From Marinoscillum pacificum (lineage in GTDB: Bacteria; Bacteroidota; Bacteroidia; Cytophagales; Cyclobacteriaceae): 64,000 nucleotides of DNA. The notes below the pieces were generated by a model. That model had not been told where the DNA came from. It saw nothing but the letters and a program-made list of their open reading frames with translations, and did not search any database. The stretch lies in assembly GCF_024714495.1 (NCBI RefSeq), contig NZ_JAMZMJ010000017.1, positions 1 to 64,000 on the forward strand. Reading direction: 5' to 3'. Both the position numbers and the translations under genes were made by a program. Shown here one piece after another: positions 8,064 through 19,676 of the stretch (the stretch's first letter is position 1; each line of letters begins with the position of its first letter).

Positions 8064-8448
8064 AATCATTCTACTTTTAACAAGTATGAACCTAATCCGG
8101 CGGCATCATATCTGTTGGTGAATACCTATCATGACCGAAGCGTCACTGAACACCAACAAAGGCCAAAGTGGTGTTTTAGATGAGGCTAGAACTGACAGGT
8201 GTTGATAAGATTTGATCAAACCTACCAGATCTTCAAATTATACCTACTCCGACCTCAAACTTTTCATGGAATAATCCCTATTTATTAAACCTGACAGGTC
8301 TTGAAGACGTGGACGCCTAGACCTGTCAGGTTTATCATCGATTCACCAATCAATAAACAATGAGGTGTCTTTAATTCGTGGAAAATGGTCACTCTCTTTC
8401 TGCGTCAAGGGAGATTACTTGTCTCAAATGAGGGGGTGAGGCACTGCC
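8064..8448. other. Non-coding tail of the accessory region
   Basis: No gene is seen. It contains the long inverted repeat at 8286-8334 and a short perfect palindrome at 8436-8452 (GTGAGGCA, C, TGCCTCAC) that overlaps the stop codon of the minus-strand permease gene and may help end its transcript. An ACTGACAGGT segment near 8188 is a further partial copy of the ACCTGACAGGT core. Confidence 0.45.
8286..8334. repeat. 16-bp perfect inverted repeat with ACCTGACAGGT core
   Basis: Arms TAAACCTGACAGGTCT (8286-8301) and AGACCTGTCAGGTTTA (8319-8334) are exact reverse complements around a 17-base loop. The core CCTGACAGG is itself nearly palindromic. The same core builds the terminator at 12326-12350, so this looks like a dispersed Bacteroidota repeat that is sometimes used as a transcription terminator. 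Confidence 0.7.
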
Positions 8449-11136
8449 TCACTCCGATCTCAGACTCTTCACGGGATTGACTTTCGTGGCCTTCCAGCTG
8501 TGGTAGCTGATCACCAGCAGGGCAATCACCACCGAGATGGCTGTGCTGATCACAAACATGTCCCCCCCTATGCTCACTCGATAGGCAAAGTCTTCCAACC
8601 ATTGCTGCATCAGCCAAATGGTAAGCGGAATGGATAAGATTACCCCAAGAGCTAACTGCCAGCTGAAAGTCCTGGCCAACAAGCCAAAGATTTGCGCTGA
8701 AGAAGCACCTATCACCTTGCGTATGCCAATCTCTTTCTCACGGCTGTTAACCACCAAGACAGTCAGTCCAAGCAATCCAATAGACGCAATGAGGATGGAG
8801 ATCAAAGTAGCTACGCCAATGAGTTTGTTCAGGCGTGCTTCGTTTTCATACTGTCGGGCAATGTTCTCATCGATGAACTCATATTCCAAGTTGCGGTTTG
8901 GGAAGGTTCTGCTCCACTCCTCCTCCAGGATGTCCTGCACAGCTAGCAAGCTCGATCCGGAGTATTTGAACAGTAGTTTCGGGAAAGGTGAATCCTGAAA
9001 ATCGGTATCGGAAATGCCTGCGAAGATTGGACTCATGTTTTGGGTAATTACCAGCGGTTCTATCTCTTCATGCAGTGATGAATAATGAAAATCTTCCACC
9101 ACACCTACTATTCGGTGTTCGCCAAAGTCACTGCCTGGTAGTTTTTCTTCCAAAGGGTTCGTCAGACCAAAATACTTCACGGCAGTTTCATTGAGAATGA
9201 TAGACTGTCGCTCATCTGCTGTATTTCCTTTTTCAAAATTCCGACCTTCTACTAGCTTCAGATCAAACGCATCGATAAAGTTGGCATCCACTCCCACCAT
9301 TCGGAACCACAAAAAGCTTCCTTTCACATCTTCAAATGCCAGGTGCATCCATCCATTGGTACCAAACGCATGGCTACTGGCGGTGAAGTTGCTCAGTTCT
9401 GGATGTTGTTGCAGGTTTTGCTGGAGCAGTTGGGCATTGTCACGTGCCGAAGCATAGCGCTCCGTAAATCGACCACTCTGGATATTGGCAAACAAAGGAA
9501 CAGCCACCACGGCTTCATAATCATACCCCAAGTTTTTGCTTTGCAGGAACCCGATCTGCTTTTGCATTATCAGTGTGCTGCTAATCAGCAATACGGTCAC
9601 TAAAAACTGGAACGTCACCATCACTTTGCGCACCCAGTGCTTACCTCCAGTGGTGTTGGAGCTTTGCATAATGCTCATGATTCGAGTGTTGGTGAGCACA
9701 AATGCCGGGTACATTCCTGCCAGTGAGCCAATGAGTAAACCCAATCCCAGGAACAGTCCCAAATGCCACCATTCAAAAGAGTAAATAAGATTGACACCAG
9801 TCAATTGATTGAAAGTAGGGATGCCAATAATGGCCAATCCTGTACCCAGCAACATGGAAATCAAGGCCACAACAATGCTCTCGGTCAGATATTGGGAAAC
9901 CAACAATTGCTTACCTGCTCCAAGGATCTTGCGCATGCCTACTTCTTTGGCTCGTTTGATGGACTTACCAATGGAAAGCGTGGTGTAGTTCACACAAGCA
10001 ATCAGCAACACCAAAAAGCCAATGATCCCCAAGACATACACATAGGTAGGATTGCTCACCGCTTCGATTCCTGCCGGCACCTCTGGATTGAGGTGAATAT
10101 CCGTCAACTCCTGGAATCCGACCGTGTATTCATCGCGATTGAAATTCTCACCCAAATACGTCATCAATACGTCCTGGGATTTGGCATTCACCGATTCGAT
10201 CCTGGAGTTTTCATTGACTAAAACATAGGTTTCCTGACTCACGGAGGTCCACCCTTTCAGTGCTTGCTCACCAAACAAGGTTTGATTCAGTTCATTGGAT
10301 ATCGCCAAATCAAACTGAATACTGGAGTTATCCGAAATATCCTTCATCACCGCAGAAACCGTGAACTCTACTACCTCCTTTTCAAGATTTATAGTGAGTG
10401 TTTGGCCAACAGGATCTTCCTTTCCAAAATACTTTTCAGCATACCCTTCAGAGAGGATAAGGTCGTACCTTCCGGTAAATGGATTCGAAGCATTACCCTT
10501 TTCCATTTCAAAATCAAATACCTGGAAGAATTCCGGACTGATCAGGGCCACCTCCTCGTTGATCCAGTTGTCACCAGAAGCCTGAACGGCATAGGTTCTT
10601 TTGAACCACTGCACCACATTTTCAAACTCAGAAAATTCCTTTTTGAATAGCGGCTCGAATCGCATAGGTGTAACAGAGTTGAAGAAGATTCTTCCATCGC
10701 CATAGTCTTCATAGAGATACGCTCTGTAGATGCGGTCTTTTTTGGAGTGCATCTGATCAAAACTGAGTTCCTGGGCCACGTAAAGTCCCATTTGCACAAA
10801 GCAAAGAATCCCGATGGTCAAGCCAAGGATGTTGAGGGTGGTGTTGAATTTGTCACGCCACAACACACGAGCGGCTACTTTGAGGTTTTGTCCTGTTAAC
10901 ATGAGTGAGTGAGTTTTGAGTTTTTGATTCTTATTAATGGCTGACCAGCGAAACGATCGCAGCACCAACCAGATAAATAATCGATTAGCAGCTTTTGCAC
11001 CTTTGGTTTCTACCTTTCGGTCAAAGAGCTCGAGCAGGTCACCCTCCAGGTCTTCCAGCAACTCTGGCTTACAGTACCAGTGCAGGAAGCGAGTAGCCCA
11101 TTTGGGTGGATTAATATGGTTGGTTTGGTCTTTCAT
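8449..11136 (-). CDS. ABC transporter permease, FtsX/MacB type with permease-prefix domain
   Basis: 895 residues. An N-terminal prefix of about 90 residues (PPKWATRFLHWYCKPELLED...) resembles the permease-prefix domains found in transporters partnered with PadR regulators. Two MacB_PCD/FtsX units follow: a membrane helix near residue 100, a periplasmic domain and three helices around 365-480, then a helix at about 510, a second periplasmic domain and three C-terminal helices with the KEIGIRKVIGAS motif. The matching first-half motif is KEVGMRKILGAG. No ABC ATPase is encoded nearby, so it must borrow one. A PadR gene lies directly upstream on the same strand. The substrate is unknown: lipoprotein, antimicrobial peptide or macrolide-type extrusion are the family's range. 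Confidence 0.88.
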   Translation of the reverse strand: MKDQTNHINPPKWATRFLHWYCKPELLEDLEGDLLELFDRKVETKGAKAANRLFIWLVLRSFRWSAINKNQKLKTHSLMLTGQNLKVAARVLWRDKFNTTLNILGLTIGILCFVQMGLYVAQELSFDQMHSKKDRIYRAYLYEDYGDGRIFFNSVTPMRFEPLFKKEFSEFENVVQWFKRTYAVQASGDNWINEEVALISPEFFQVFDFEMEKGNASNPFTGRYDLILSEGYAEKYFGKEDPVGQTLTINLEKEVVEFTVSAVMKDISDNSSIQFDLAISNELNQTLFGEQALKGWTSVSQETYVLVNENSRIESVNAKSQDVLMTYLGENFNRDEYTVGFQELTDIHLNPEVPAGIEAVSNPTYVYVLGIIGFLVLLIACVNYTTLSIGKSIKRAKEVGMRKILGAGKQLLVSQYLTESIVVALISMLLGTGLAIIGIPTFNQLTGVNLIYSFEWWHLGLFLGLGLLIGSLAGMYPAFVLTNTRIMSIMQSSNTTGGKHWVRKVMVTFQFLVTVLLISSTLIMQKQIGFLQSKNLGYDYEAVVAVPLFANIQSGRFTERYASARDNAQLLQQNLQQHPELSNFTASSHAFGTNGWMHLAFEDVKGSFLWFRMVGVDANFIDAFDLKLVEGRNFEKGNTADERQSIILNETAVKYFGLTNPLEEKLPGSDFGEHRIVGVVEDFHYSSLHEEIEPLVITQNMSPIFAGISDTDFQDSPFPKLLFKYSGSSLLAVQDILEEEWSRTFPNRNLEYEFIDENIARQYENEARLNKLIGVATLISILIASIGLLGLTVLVVNSREKEIGIRKVIGASSAQIFGLLARTFSWQLALGVILSIPLTIWLMQQWLEDFAYRVSIGGDMFVISTAISVVIALLVISYHSWKATKVNPVKSLRSE

Positions 11137-15662: not shown

Positions 15663-18200
15663 ATGTCCGATTTACTCCTCGAAAACTCAACCTATTCACG
15701 CGAAGATGTACAGGAAGCAGCCCTGATGTACTTTGGTGGCGACGAACTCGCTGCCACCACCTGGATCAACAAGTACTGTATGATCAATGATGAAAACCAA
15801 TATGCAGAACTGACTCCAGATGACATGCATGAGCGCATGGCTGGAGAGTTTTACCGAATAGAAAAGAAGTATCAGGAAAGACCAGTCGAGAAAGAAGCTC
15901 TTAGCGACTATGGTCAGCGGAGAAAACCATTAAAAGAATCGGTCATCTTCGAACTATTCAAAGATTTCAAATACCTGATTCCACAAGGTAGTGTCATGGC
16001 GCTGTTGGGTAACCCGTTCCTGACAGGATCACTAAGCAATTGTGTAGTTATTGATGCCCCAATCGATAGTTACGGTGGCATTTTCTATACCGATCAGCAA
16101 ATTGCTCAGCTGTGCAAACGAAGATGTGGGGTTGGATTTGATCTATCAACCATCAGACCGAAAGGGCTAGCAGTACACAATGCAGCAGGTACTTCTTCGG
16201 GCATCGTTTCATTTATGGAGCGATTCTCCAACACCACTCGAGAGGTTAGTCAAAATGGACGCCGAGGTGCACTAATGCTAACTATAGATATTGCGCATCC
16301 GGATATTGAGGATTTCGTGACGGTGAAGCAAGACCTCAGTAAAGTGACTGGAGCCAATATTTCCGTAAGGGTATCGGATGAATTTATGAAAGCTGTTCAC
16401 AGTGGAGAGGAGTTTCAGCTTCAATGGCCGATAAAGAGTGAGAACCCCATCATTACCAAGTCCATTGATGCAAAAGAACTATGGAATACAATCATTGCAT
16501 CAGCACACAACACGGCTGAACCGGGCATTATTTATTGGGATAAACAACATCATTATAGTACTTCCTCTGTATATCCAGATTTTGAGAATGCTTCCACTAA
16601 CCCTTGTTCGGAAATCGCCATGCAACCAAACGACTCCTGTCGACTGATGGCACTCAATCTATTCAGTTTCATCAATCAACCGTTCACTTCAGAGGCACAT
16701 TTCAACCACGAATTGTTTTATGAGGTAGTCTATGAAGGGCAGCGCCTAATGGATGACTTGGTAGATCTGGAATTAGAGCACGTAACCGCTATCATCGAAA
16801 AAATAGCCAATGACCCAGAGCCTGGTCACATCAAACATGTAGAGGCAGACACCTGGAATCACCTGTACAGCAACGGGAAGAAAGGTCGTCGAACTGGGCT
16901 AGGGTTCACCGCATTGGCTGATGCATTAGCAGGATTGGGCGTGAAATTTGATAGTGACGATGCATTGGATGTGGTCAAAGAAATCATGCATACGAAATGC
17001 AAGGCGGAGTTTGATAGCTCAGTAGATATGGCAGTAGAAAGAGGGCACTTTGAGGCCTTTGACCCTCAAATCGAGCAGACCTCTGACTTTGTCAAATTCC
17101 TGGCAGAAGAGTTCCCTGAAACGTACGAACGCATGATGACACACGGTCGTCGCAACATCTCCATTTCTACCGTAGCCCCAACAGGTACGGTAAGTATGCT
17201 TGCCCAAACCTCCTCAGGAATCGAACCTGTATTCATGTTGTCCTACAAACGCAGAAGAAAAGCCACAGACCTCTCCGAAAAAGAAGCCACATTCATTGAT
17301 GATTCCGGAGACAGATGGGAAGAGTTTGATGTATATCACAAAAAATTAGAGGACTGGAAAGCACTGTATCCTAACAAAGCAATTGAAGAGAGTCCCTACG
17401 CCGGCGCCACGGCTCCAGAAATTGATTGGCAAAAGCGCATTGAATTACAGGCACTCATTCAAAAATATGTGACCCACTCCATTAGTTCTACGATCAACCT
17501 TCCTGCAGATACCTCCGTGGAGGAAGTAGATCAAATCTACAGACAAGCATGGCAACAAGGACTCAAAGGAATTACGGTCTATCGTGATGGTTCTAGAACT
17601 GGTGTGCTGATTAGTCAGGAAGAAACGAAAGAGGATGATATCATCGAGACAAAAGCTCCCAAAAGGCCTAAAGAACTGCTTGCTAAAATCGTTCGGTTCC
17701 AAAATGAAAAAGAGAACTGGATGGCCTTCGTCGGTTTGCTAAATGGTAAGCCTTATGAAATCTTTACCGGTAGAGCAGAAGACTCCTTTGCTCTTCCTGC
17801 CTATGTTAAAGATGGCTGGATCATTCGCACCAAGGATCAACGCACGAATAAGACCCGCTATGACTTCCTTTTTGTGGACAGCCAGGGATATGAAGTTTTG
17901 ATAGCAGGACTCTCTCGATCTTTTGATCAGCAACTATGGAATTATGCGAAACTTATTTCCGGAATTTTAAGACATGGTATGCCACTCGTTGATGTGATTC
18001 ACTTGATTGACAATCTAAATTTTGATCGCAATCACATCAACACCTGGAAGAATGGTGTTAACCGAGCATTGAAGAAGTTCGTCCCGGAAGGTACCAAATC
18101 CAAAGACCACCTATGTCCACAATGTGGAGATGAAGAAGGTCTAATCTTTGAAGAAGGATGCTTGAAGTGTAAAAACTGTGGGCATACGGCGTGTAGCTAG
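15663..18200 (+). CDS. nrdJ: Adenosylcobalamin-dependent (class II) ribonucleotide reductase
   Basis: 845 residues. It makes deoxyribonucleotides using a radical generated from B12. Three expected cysteines are visible: C127 (LSNCVV), C315 (NPCSEI) and C326 (NDSCRL). Their spacings (188 and 11) equal those I recall for the Thermotoga class II enzyme (C134, C322, C333). Further family motifs are GRRGALMLTIDIAHPDIEDF, TGLGFTALADALAGLGV and ISTVAPTGTVSMLAQTSSGI. The C-terminal 200 residues are the usual NrdJ tail, ending in a zinc-ribbon-like CPQCG...CLKCKNCG that re-reduces the active site. There is no nrdB-like gene nearby, as expected for class II. It is probably monocistronic. Confidence 0.96.
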   Translation: MSDLLLENSTYSREDVQEAALMYFGGDELAATTWINKYCMINDENQYAELTPDDMHERMAGEFYRIEKKYQERPVEKEALSDYGQRRKPLKESVIFELFKDFKYLIPQGSVMALLGNPFLTGSLSNCVVIDAPIDSYGGIFYTDQQIAQLCKRRCGVGFDLSTIRPKGLAVHNAAGTSSGIVSFMERFSNTTREVSQNGRRGALMLTIDIAHPDIEDFVTVKQDLSKVTGANISVRVSDEFMKAVHSGEEFQLQWPIKSENPIITKSIDAKELWNTIIASAHNTAEPGIIYWDKQHHYSTSSVYPDFENASTNPCSEIAMQPNDSCRLMALNLFSFINQPFTSEAHFNHELFYEVVYEGQRLMDDLVDLELEHVTAIIEKIANDPEPGHIKHVEADTWNHLYSNGKKGRRTGLGFTALADALAGLGVKFDSDDALDVVKEIMHTKCKAEFDSSVDMAVERGHFEAFDPQIEQTSDFVKFLAEEFPETYERMMTHGRRNISISTVAPTGTVSMLAQTSSGIEPVFMLSYKRRRKATDLSEKEATFIDDSGDRWEEFDVYHKKLEDWKALYPNKAIEESPYAGATAPEIDWQKRIELQALIQKYVTHSISSTINLPADTSVEEVDQIYRQAWQQGLKGITVYRDGSRTGVLISQEETKEDDIIETKAPKRPKELLAKIVRFQNEKENWMAFVGLLNGKPYEIFTGRAEDSFALPAYVKDGWIIRTKDQRTNKTRYDFLFVDSQGYEVLIAGLSRSFDQQLWNYAKLISGILRHGMPLVDVIHLIDNLNFDRNHINTWKNGVNRALKKFVPEGTKSKDHLCPQCGDEEGLIFEEGCLKCKNCGHTACS

Positions 18201-18263
18201 ACAAAATTCGTTCAACAATTTTCCACAGACGTTTTAGCATAAACACTGTTCTTACTTTAATAT

Positions 18264-18285
18264 GCTCCCCTCCCAGGAGGGGAGC
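18264..18285. terminator. GC-rich hairpin downstream of nrdJ
   Basis: A perfect 10-bp inverted repeat GCTCCCCTCC / GGAGGGGAGC with a 2-base centre, 63 bp after the nrdJ stop. No T-run follows, so it is either a weak terminator, an mRNA 3'-stabiliser or another REP-like element. Confidence 0.45.
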
Positions 18286-18325
18286 TACAACAAGACAATT
18301 CAGTAGAAACACACCAAAATCGATT

Positions 18326-18371
18326 CATAACACGTTAGTAGTCTTAGTGTTAATGTAAAAAACGTGTTATG
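18326..18371 (+). promoter_or_regulatory. 11-bp inverted repeat that contains the start codon of the next gene
   Basis: CATAACACGTT (18326-18336) and AACGTGTTATG (18361-18371) are exact reverse complements separated by 24 bases. The ATG of the gene at 18369 is the last three bases of the right arm. In RNA the stem would bury the start codon. In DNA it would be a symmetric operator overlapping the translation start. Confidence 0.65.
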
Positions 18372-19676
18372 CAAAAAATCACCTTGACGACACTGCTACT
18401 CATAGCAGTGCAACTAACCTATGCCCAAAAACAACCAGACTTTGTCAAATTCAAACCAGTACATATCGGGATTATACCCGGACTTGGCTCTTCAGGAGTC
18501 TACGGAATCAAGTACGAACACAATGTTAGTATTAACATTTTCTCCGGACATGCCTATGCCAACAACATCCTCAGTATTTCTGGAATTAGTCATTATCAAA
18601 TCCAGAGAAGTCAGGGAATCAACATCGCAGGTGTTGGCAATATTCTTGGCGCTTTTCCATTTCTAAAGGATCGCCATGCGAAAGACAGTGTTGCTGAGTT
18701 CGGAGCGATACAAATTGCAGGTCTGATTAATGGAGTAAATGGCGGAGGATTCGGAGGCCAGCTAAGTGCAGGATTCAATTTGGTCACTGTTTCTATGAAT
18801 GGCATTCAAATCACAGGCATTCACAACGATGTAGCAAAGGCTTTTTCTGGTGGACAAATCGCACTAGTCTCCAATCATATTGGGGATATGGGAGTTGCCT
18901 TCCAGTCGGCTTTTATTGTCAATAGAGCCAGAATGCTATCTGGTGTACAATTATTTGCCCTCTTCAATCATATTAGCCATGAACTGGATGGCCTTCAGTT
19001 GGGAGGTCTCAATGTGGTGACCAATCACAACAGTGAAACTTTTCGATATAGTAAGTTTTACTGGATGCAATTAGGCCTTGCTAATTTTGCCTGGAGAAAC
19101 GGTGATGGGTTTCAACTGGGCTTGGTGAACTATGCTGAAGATCTCGGGTATGCTCAATTTGGTCTGATCAACATCTCCAATAAAATCCCACAGTATCCTA
19201 TTGGATTACTTAATCTGGCGCCAGATGCTCGTGGATTCTTACGTGCCCATACCAATAGACTCTTTCGCTACAATGTGGAAATGTCTACAGGTTCCAAAAA
19301 ATTACTCAATGCCCTTACCTATAGTTGGGATAATCAGAAAAAACGACAAGGTTTTAGTTATGCTCTTGGTAACCAAAAGAAAGATCCCCGGAAACTTCAC
19401 AACCGCTATTTCTATGAGGCCTTTGCACAAGCAACTCATCTGGTAGAACAAGGTCAGTCCATATGGAAGCCAAATATGATCTATACCATCAAAGGTCAGT
19501 TTGGCTTCAATCCATTTGATCACACAAAAATGCCTGACTTGTTCTTTTTTATCGGAATAGTAGGCAATGCCTCCTGGATAAAATCAGATACTCAAGACTT
19601 GATAGAAGGACCACTTGTTGCTCAGAATGGAAATCGTACGTTTTGGGCTGATCTCAATTTCGGAGTTCAACTTTAA
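18369..19676 (+). CDS. LA_2272-type surface repeat protein
   Basis: 435 residues with a signal peptide ending LTYAQ at about residue 20. The body is a series of short repeats such as GINIAGVGNILG, AIQIAGLINGVNGG, GIQITGIHNDVA, GLQLGGLNVVTN, GFQLGLVNYAEDLG and AQFGLINISN, the pattern of LA_2272/LA_2273 surface repeat proteins. The repeats end at about residue 285. A beta-rich C-terminal domain follows, ending in an outer-membrane-like strand with NFGVQL. It is probably an outer-membrane or surface protein of unknown function. The start codon lies inside a perfect inverted repeat. The gene runs convergent to the next one, only 12 bp away. Confidence 0.75.
   Translation: MQKITLTTLLLIAVQLTYAQKQPDFVKFKPVHIGIIPGLGSSGVYGIKYEHNVSINIFSGHAYANNILSISGISHYQIQRSQGINIAGVGNILGAFPFLKDRHAKDSVAEFGAIQIAGLINGVNGGGFGGQLSAGFNLVTVSMNGIQITGIHNDVAKAFSGGQIALVSNHIGDMGVAFQSAFIVNRARMLSGVQLFALFNHISHELDGLQLGGLNVVTNHNSETFRYSKFYWMQLGLANFAWRNGDGFQLGLVNYAEDLGYAQFGLINISNKIPQYPIGLLNLAPDARGFLRAHTNRLFRYNVEMSTGSKKLLNALTYSWDNQKKRQGFSYALGNQKKDPRKLHNRYFYEAFAQATHLVEQGQSIWKPNMIYTIKGQFGFNPFDHTKMPDLFFFIGIVGNASWIKSDTQDLIEGPLVAQNGNRTFWADLNFGVQL

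Follow-up and report, generated by a model that had tools for sequence, protein, structure and literature searches.

An inverted repeat and GTGTTA copies over the start codon of an LA_2272 surface-repeat gene in Marinoscillum pacificum: a possible cluster of regulatory DNA sites

In Marinoscillum pacificum, copies of the hexamer GTGTTA lie at the start of a gene of the LA_2272 surface-repeat family; the copies recur in orthologs of this gene and are rare at sampled starts, and the sequence from -23 to +19 is constrained. Judged from sequence, they possibly constitute a gene-specific cis-regulatory cluster of DNA sites over the promoter and start codon, a reading that is given a probability of roughly 0.4 and is ranked above an RNA structure locking translation, which itself ranks above a chance palindrome. 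A perfect inverted repeat at the start codon would, on the preferred reading, be an inverted GTGTTA copy facing the one in a direct-repeat unit (R2, below), with its left arm overlapping a -10-like box and its right arm covering the start codon and the bases transcribed first. A putative DNA-binding regulator would bind the copies and block or tune transcription initiation; we infer that it would act as a repressor. The element represents a strong nucleotide-level constraint over a start codon, linked to one surface-repeat gene, and a case in which a single measurement of the transcript end would separate DNA-level from RNA-level control.

The inverted repeat and its gene

The DNA analyzed (the window) comprises 64,000 nucleotides, and its features are given on the plus strand unless stated otherwise. 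As the preliminary description reported, CATAACACGTT (left arm, 18326-18336) and AACGTGTTATG (right arm, 18361-18371) form a perfect inverted repeat, complementary at 11/11 positions around a 24-base loop (18337-18360), and the repeat ends on a start codon, the last base of the right arm being the G of the ATG (18369-18371). The left arm holds the inverted hexamer TAACAC (18328-18333). Perfect inverted repeats with arms of at least 11 bp and loops of 3-30 bases number four in the window, compared with 0-2 (mean 0.33) in 12 dinucleotide shuffles. Across the ATG (loop 3-35), the longest perfect arm among 301 sampled starts of the same genome is the 11 bp found here, with at most 8 elsewhere (8 at four starts), and the longest among 139 starts of the relative G224 is 6. 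An 11-bp repeat is not very rare within 64 kb, but one lying exactly over a start codon is rare. The control starts (440 when pooled) come from the window and twenty 20-kb stretches (464 kb of the 6.4-Mb genome) and from 217 kb of the relative, and are non-curated calls made by our own longest-ATG rule; those in the window's genome are preceded by A-rich, G-poor sequence.

Other inverted repeats in the window include a 16-bp perfect one with a 17-base loop (TAAACCTGACAGGTCT, 8286-8334), possibly a terminator, which lies downstream of a gene on the minus strand (8449-11136), and a 12-bp perfect one (GTTGATGTGATT, 17988-18041) that lies within the coding sequence of nrdJ and is likely due to chance. 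An invertible promoter was set aside as an explanation of the element at the start codon, given that the loop is just 24 bases long and has the same orientation in a congeneric genome (G003).

The gene whose start is covered by the element (18369-19676), identified by an ORF call and a family search, encodes a protein of 435 aa with the N-terminus MQKITLTTLLLIAVQLTYAQ, which we read as signal-peptide-like. The protein scores 37.5 bits against the NCBIfam LA_2272 surface-repeat model NF047436.1 (cut-off 25) and has no match in Pfam at E ≤ 0.1; an AlphaFold model built from two sequences reached a pLDDT of 26.7 and was not used. Because an in-frame TAA lies at 18351-18353, there is no further in-frame upstream ATG before a stop. 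The upstream neighbor on the same strand is nrdJ, encoding an adenosylcobalamin-dependent ribonucleotide reductase (TIGR02504). Between the two genes lies a hairpin without a T-run (GCTCCCCTC-CCAG-GAGGGGAGC, 18264-18285); a similar hairpin in the same intergenic region of G003 is followed by TTTT, a likely nrdJ terminator.

Orthologs, constrained block and GTGTTA copies

Five orthologs with matching N-termini, from two genera, were compared: the window gene, one full-length congeneric ortholog with 78% protein identity (L007 in G003, record PBTY01000092.1) and three loci of another genus, g56 (L046, L047 and L048), with 43-46% identity. The counts exclude L008 (34%, with the match beginning at residue 27), L009-L013 and L053 as weaker homologs, and L002-L006 as paralogs in the window's own genome. 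The record PBTY01000092.1 (L015) is titled Rickettsiales and its genome groups with the window's genus, so the title may be a mislabel. Protein searches, with the own genome counted where searched, gave matches in 8/59 relatives at 1e-20, 4/10 g56 genomes at 1e-15, 6/390 family genomes at 1e-40 and 1/390 order genomes, the last being the own one. The L048 protein as query matched in 5/389 genomes at 1e-35, and a protein search of a contig collection returned one relative, the G003 record. At the DNA level, a search of six genomes of the genus at E ≤ 10 gave matches in 6/6; besides the own locus, only the G003 ortholog fell below 0.01 (3e-45). The reductase neighbor is common to the window and G003 and is absent within 1.5 kb on either side of the g56 loci, indicating that the element travels with the gene and not with its neighborhood; at the g56 loci, a gene that we read as helicase-like lies downstream.

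The window gene and its congeneric ortholog share an identical block of 42 nt from -23 to +19 (18346-18387, by alignment), the next longest identical run in the same comparison being 17. Their coding sequences have 73% nucleotide identity, with identical codons at 155/329 same-residue positions (47%), and ungapped identity upstream of -40 is 1 to 5 in 10. The compared contigs yield 25 best-hit pairs; the alignment starts match in 17 of them, and these 17 include a single other run above 40 nt. It spans the start (-26 to +22) of the minus-strand gene at 8449-11136, which is 97% identical to its G003 counterpart. Within the 42-nt block, R1 (GTGTTAATGTAAAAAAC, 18347-18363) and R2 (GTGTTATGCAAAAAATC, 18364-18380) are two near copies of one unit in direct orientation; R1 holds an ATG-TAA start-stop (18353-18358) and R2 spans the start codon. 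The string GTGTTATG opens all five orthologs, the window gene included, compared with 1/301 (the window gene itself) and 0/139 of the sampled starts. Candidate starts were also available for most of the left-out homologs and paralogs: the candidate start of L053 is preceded by two GTGTTA copies, and GTGTTATG occurs at none of these starts. A viral collection searched with the R1-R2 string gave no match.

Between -100 and +5, the exact hexamer GTGTTA is found two or more times, counting both strands, in 4/5 orthologs compared with 2/440 sampled starts, one of which is the window gene. The window gene has three exact copies, inverted in the left arm, in the loop (R1) and from -5 into the ATG (R2). 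Copies are direct in the window, G003 and L046 and inverted in the window and L048, with variable spacing, and L047 has one exact copy only. With exact copies, the hexamer behaves as the site of an operator cluster would, recurring in orthologs while being rare at other starts. With one mismatch allowed, 3/5 orthologs exceed the controls at 5%; the copy numbers of L047 and L048 are ordinary, being reached by 65% and 27% of sampled starts, respectively.

As a pattern, GTGTTA-N1-31-GTGTTATG is not enriched in ten genomes, with nine matches against 12 for the reversed control; three of the nine open long frames (432-435 codons), all of them orthologs, and the next longest frame has 40 codons. The arrangement is therefore uncommon and, at a gene start, marks the LA_2272 gene. 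TAACAC-N8-38-GTGTTATG likewise shows no enrichment in five genomes (four matches against nine for the reversed control), and a second match to the TAACAC form in the own genome (G000), at C7:46771, was rejected as it opens a frame of six codons only. The specificity of the paired-site pattern lies only in its position at the gene start.

Promoter-like sequence and predicted RNA pairing

At all three g56 loci, TTGAAC and TATA are invariant at an 18-bp spacing amid variable upstream sequence, with TATA 65, 64 and 23 bases before the ATG. This TTGAAC-N18-TATA block looks like a promoter; at 23-89 bases upstream of the start, it overlaps a palindrome-like AAGTGTATA-CACT stretch. The window has a promoter-like stretch (18306-18344) that can be aligned weakly to the block of L046 (window -63 to -24 against L046 -87 to -48; p 0.03, one of several comparisons), which places the left arm at the position of the TATA box, and the left arm may thus be the counterpart of the block's -10. 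A different, long gapped alignment links the window to L048 (p 0.025), and the upstream alignment of the window to L047 is not significant, nor is any of the G003 upstream region to L046, L047 or L048; the two alignments obtained are 2/6 cross-genus comparisons, with uncorrected p values. The left-arm sequence is not preserved in G003.

If the block is a promoter, the left arms of L047 and L048 would entirely or largely precede the transcript, and a transcription start just after the block would place the left arm outside the mRNA, such that the hairpin could not form. That it is a promoter is nevertheless something that we infer with reserve, given three observations. A genome-wide TTGAAC-N17-18-TATAA class was not supported, the pattern being rarer than the reversed control in each of five genomes (7/18, 14/18, 9/18, 13/15 and 4/20); TANNTTTG, the motif enriched upstream of genes, was absent when sought on both strands of 18201-18368; and L047 has one enriched promoter motif of the TANNTTTG type (TAGCTTTG) upstream of its TTGAAC block.

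With the preceding 80 nt included, the mean unpaired probability of -8 to -1 is predicted to be 0.03 in the window gene, 0.09 in G003, 0.42 in L046, 0.01 in L047 and 0.02 in L048, values ≤0.08 occurring at 8/301 (window gene included) and 3/139 sampled starts. Shuffling of the upstream sequence only gives p values, in the same order, of 0.012, 0.047, 0.84, 0.005 and 0.022 (Fisher 0.0002 for all five, 0.0017 without the window), with p ≤ 0.05 in 7.5% of 120 control starts; shuffling of the whole region, scored over -8 to +3, gives <1/300, 0.07, 0.68, 0.05 and 0.08. In a duplex test, only the window and L048 are supported (p 0.22 in G003, 0.23 in L046, 0.22 in L047 and 0.002 in L048; Fisher without the window 0.006). 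A complement test gives 0.0003 in the window, 0.0073 in G003 and 0.47, 0.28 and 0.18 in L046, L047 and L048, with p ≤ 0.02 at 10/301 and 3/139 control starts. These p values are indicative, as the sequences are related and several statistics were tried. Total folding energy from -80 to +12 is ordinary for the window gene (z -0.83) and has z values of -2.87, -1.15, -1.97 and -4.38 in the other orthologs.

The predicted partners of the start region differ among orthologs. In the window, an 11-bp stem of -10.5 kcal/mol is predicted. In G003, GCAAAAAATC of the start region has a perfect 10-bp complement within the left-arm region (p 0.007), and the predicted fold is closed by TAACATG/CGTGTTA, with TAACATG further upstream than this complement. 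L048 could form a stem of 11 pairs, one of them G-U, that ends at -1, and L047 one of nine pairs, two of them G-U; L046 has weak pairing partners only, and its start region is not sequestered. The start region is thus predicted to be paired in 4/5 orthologs with different partners, and no column-wise covariation is seen, as the left arms differ in position and sequence. The left arms of the window and G003 may be what remains of a single 20-bp arm exactly complementary to -8 to +12, an idea that fits the complement test and conflicts with the promoter alignment. For transcripts beginning ~7 nt after the TATA-like box (an equivalent place being assumed in the window and G003), -8 to -1 is predicted to be unpaired at 0.63 in the window, 0.56 in G003, 0.42 in both L046 and L047 and 0.15 in L048, and is therefore freed in four of the five, with L048 still mostly paired. 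Rfam at gathering score gave no matches in the window, L007, L046, L047 or L048; a single sub-threshold match near the start is on the opposite strand.

Competing readings and known systems

A stem that blocks translation until unfolded had been proposed in the preliminary description. In its elaborated form, the transcript would initiate upstream, the left arm would pair with the start region and exclude the ribosome, and a protein, small RNA or upstream ribosome would open the structure; the partner of the start region would have been replaced over time, with structure kept over sequence. Such a lock, which we consider unlikely but take seriously, is consistent with the predicted stability of the stem, with pairing of -8 to -1 above upstream-shuffled controls in 4/5 orthologs if transcription begins upstream, and with the 10-bp complement and the closing pairs in G003. 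A transcript containing the left arm is also possible in L047, given TAGCTTTG upstream of its TTGAAC block. According to Baez et al. (PMC6847099), both local structure near the start and upstream adenines matter for initiation in Flavobacterium johnsoniae, from which lower translation would be expected when a G/T-rich -8 to -1 is paired. Against the lock stand the unsequestered start of L046, the duplex results in G003, L046 and L047, the null complement test in g56, the ordinary folding energy of the window gene and the lack of covariation. The window's left arm is moreover unconserved and lies in a promoter-like, possibly untranscribed block; those of L047 and L048 overlap or precede the TATA-like box, and starts shortly after this box would leave -8 to -1 largely unheld. 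Unfolding by temperature, also suggested earlier, is extremely improbable. The stem over the start codon is AU-rich, and with 60 nt upstream the AUG of L047 and L048 is predicted to open from ~0.5 at 10°C to 0.85-0.99 at 55°C, as is -8 to -1 of L046 from 0.17 to 0.50. However, no melting is predicted for the window gene itself over this range (unpaired probability ≤0.03 for the AUG and ≤0.05 for -8 to -1), -8 to -1 stays mostly paired in G003, L047 and L048, and Rfam gave no family at gathering score in the window or in the other four orthologs. A two-state leader with a decoy start is improbable as well: in a context nearly copying that of the true start, R1 places AUG-UAA 16 bases ahead of it. 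With R2 paired to the left arm, the true AUG would be buried and the start-stop exposed in the loop, and a ribosome loading on this start-stop could open the stem and pass to the true start. In the predicted fold of G003, the left-arm region pairs with R1 rather than R2.

It is rather doubtful, and less probable than the translational lock, that the palindrome is accidental and that -23 to +19 is constrained otherwise, as a core promoter or initiation context. The unconserved left arm in G003 and the four such or larger repeats in the window, one inside nrdJ, would agree with an accident, whereas the 11-bp arm over the ATG is unique in 301 starts and 4/5 orthologs carry extra exact GTGTTA. The operator that the preliminary description offered as an alternative fits better than its stem, as GTGTTA/TAACAC occurs in both orientations and -23 to +19 is constrained, with protein binding as a prediction. 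For a cluster of DNA sites, direct and inverted copies at variable spacing would fit a protein reading double-stranded DNA, and RNA hairpins would arise as a side effect; this layout would also suit a multi-site RNA-binding protein. Points against the DNA-site cluster are that copies without fixed spacing are unusual for a dimer operator, and that the excess of pairing over shuffles would follow only if it is due to the inverted copies. The single exact copy in L047, the one-mismatch counts of L047 and L048, the paired-site patterns that are not enriched genome-wide, the non-significant upstream alignments, the scarcity of the TTGAAC-N17-18-TATAA pattern and the absence of TANNTTTG from 18201-18368 also count against it.

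Among the papers listed by literature searches, none describes the element, judged by title and abstract opening. Operators overlapping promoter and gene start are a general class in bacteria. The element resembles them in that short sites, repeated and inverted, cover a -10-like box and the start codon, and differs in that spacing varies among relatives, the constrained block enters the first codons and the regulator is putative. Leader hairpins that sequester start codons are likewise a general class; an AUG-containing stem that is predicted to be stable is shared with these, whereas here the left arm is unconserved and possibly untranscribed, and Rfam gives no gathering-score match. The likeness to the LA_2272 surface-repeat family (NF047436) concerns the downstream protein, which scores above the cut-off, and not the element. 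MacGregor (PMC4679880) describes direct repeats of the heptamer TAACTGA that precede start codons in Beggiatoaceae and in five Bacteroidetes, and proposes that a regulator binds these short repeats beside start codons. Both cases involve short repeated units a few bases from start codons as proposed regulator sites; in contrast to the 169 sets of TAACTGA repeats given for one genome (PMC4679880), the element described here has another unit, in two or three copies, at the orthologs of one gene.
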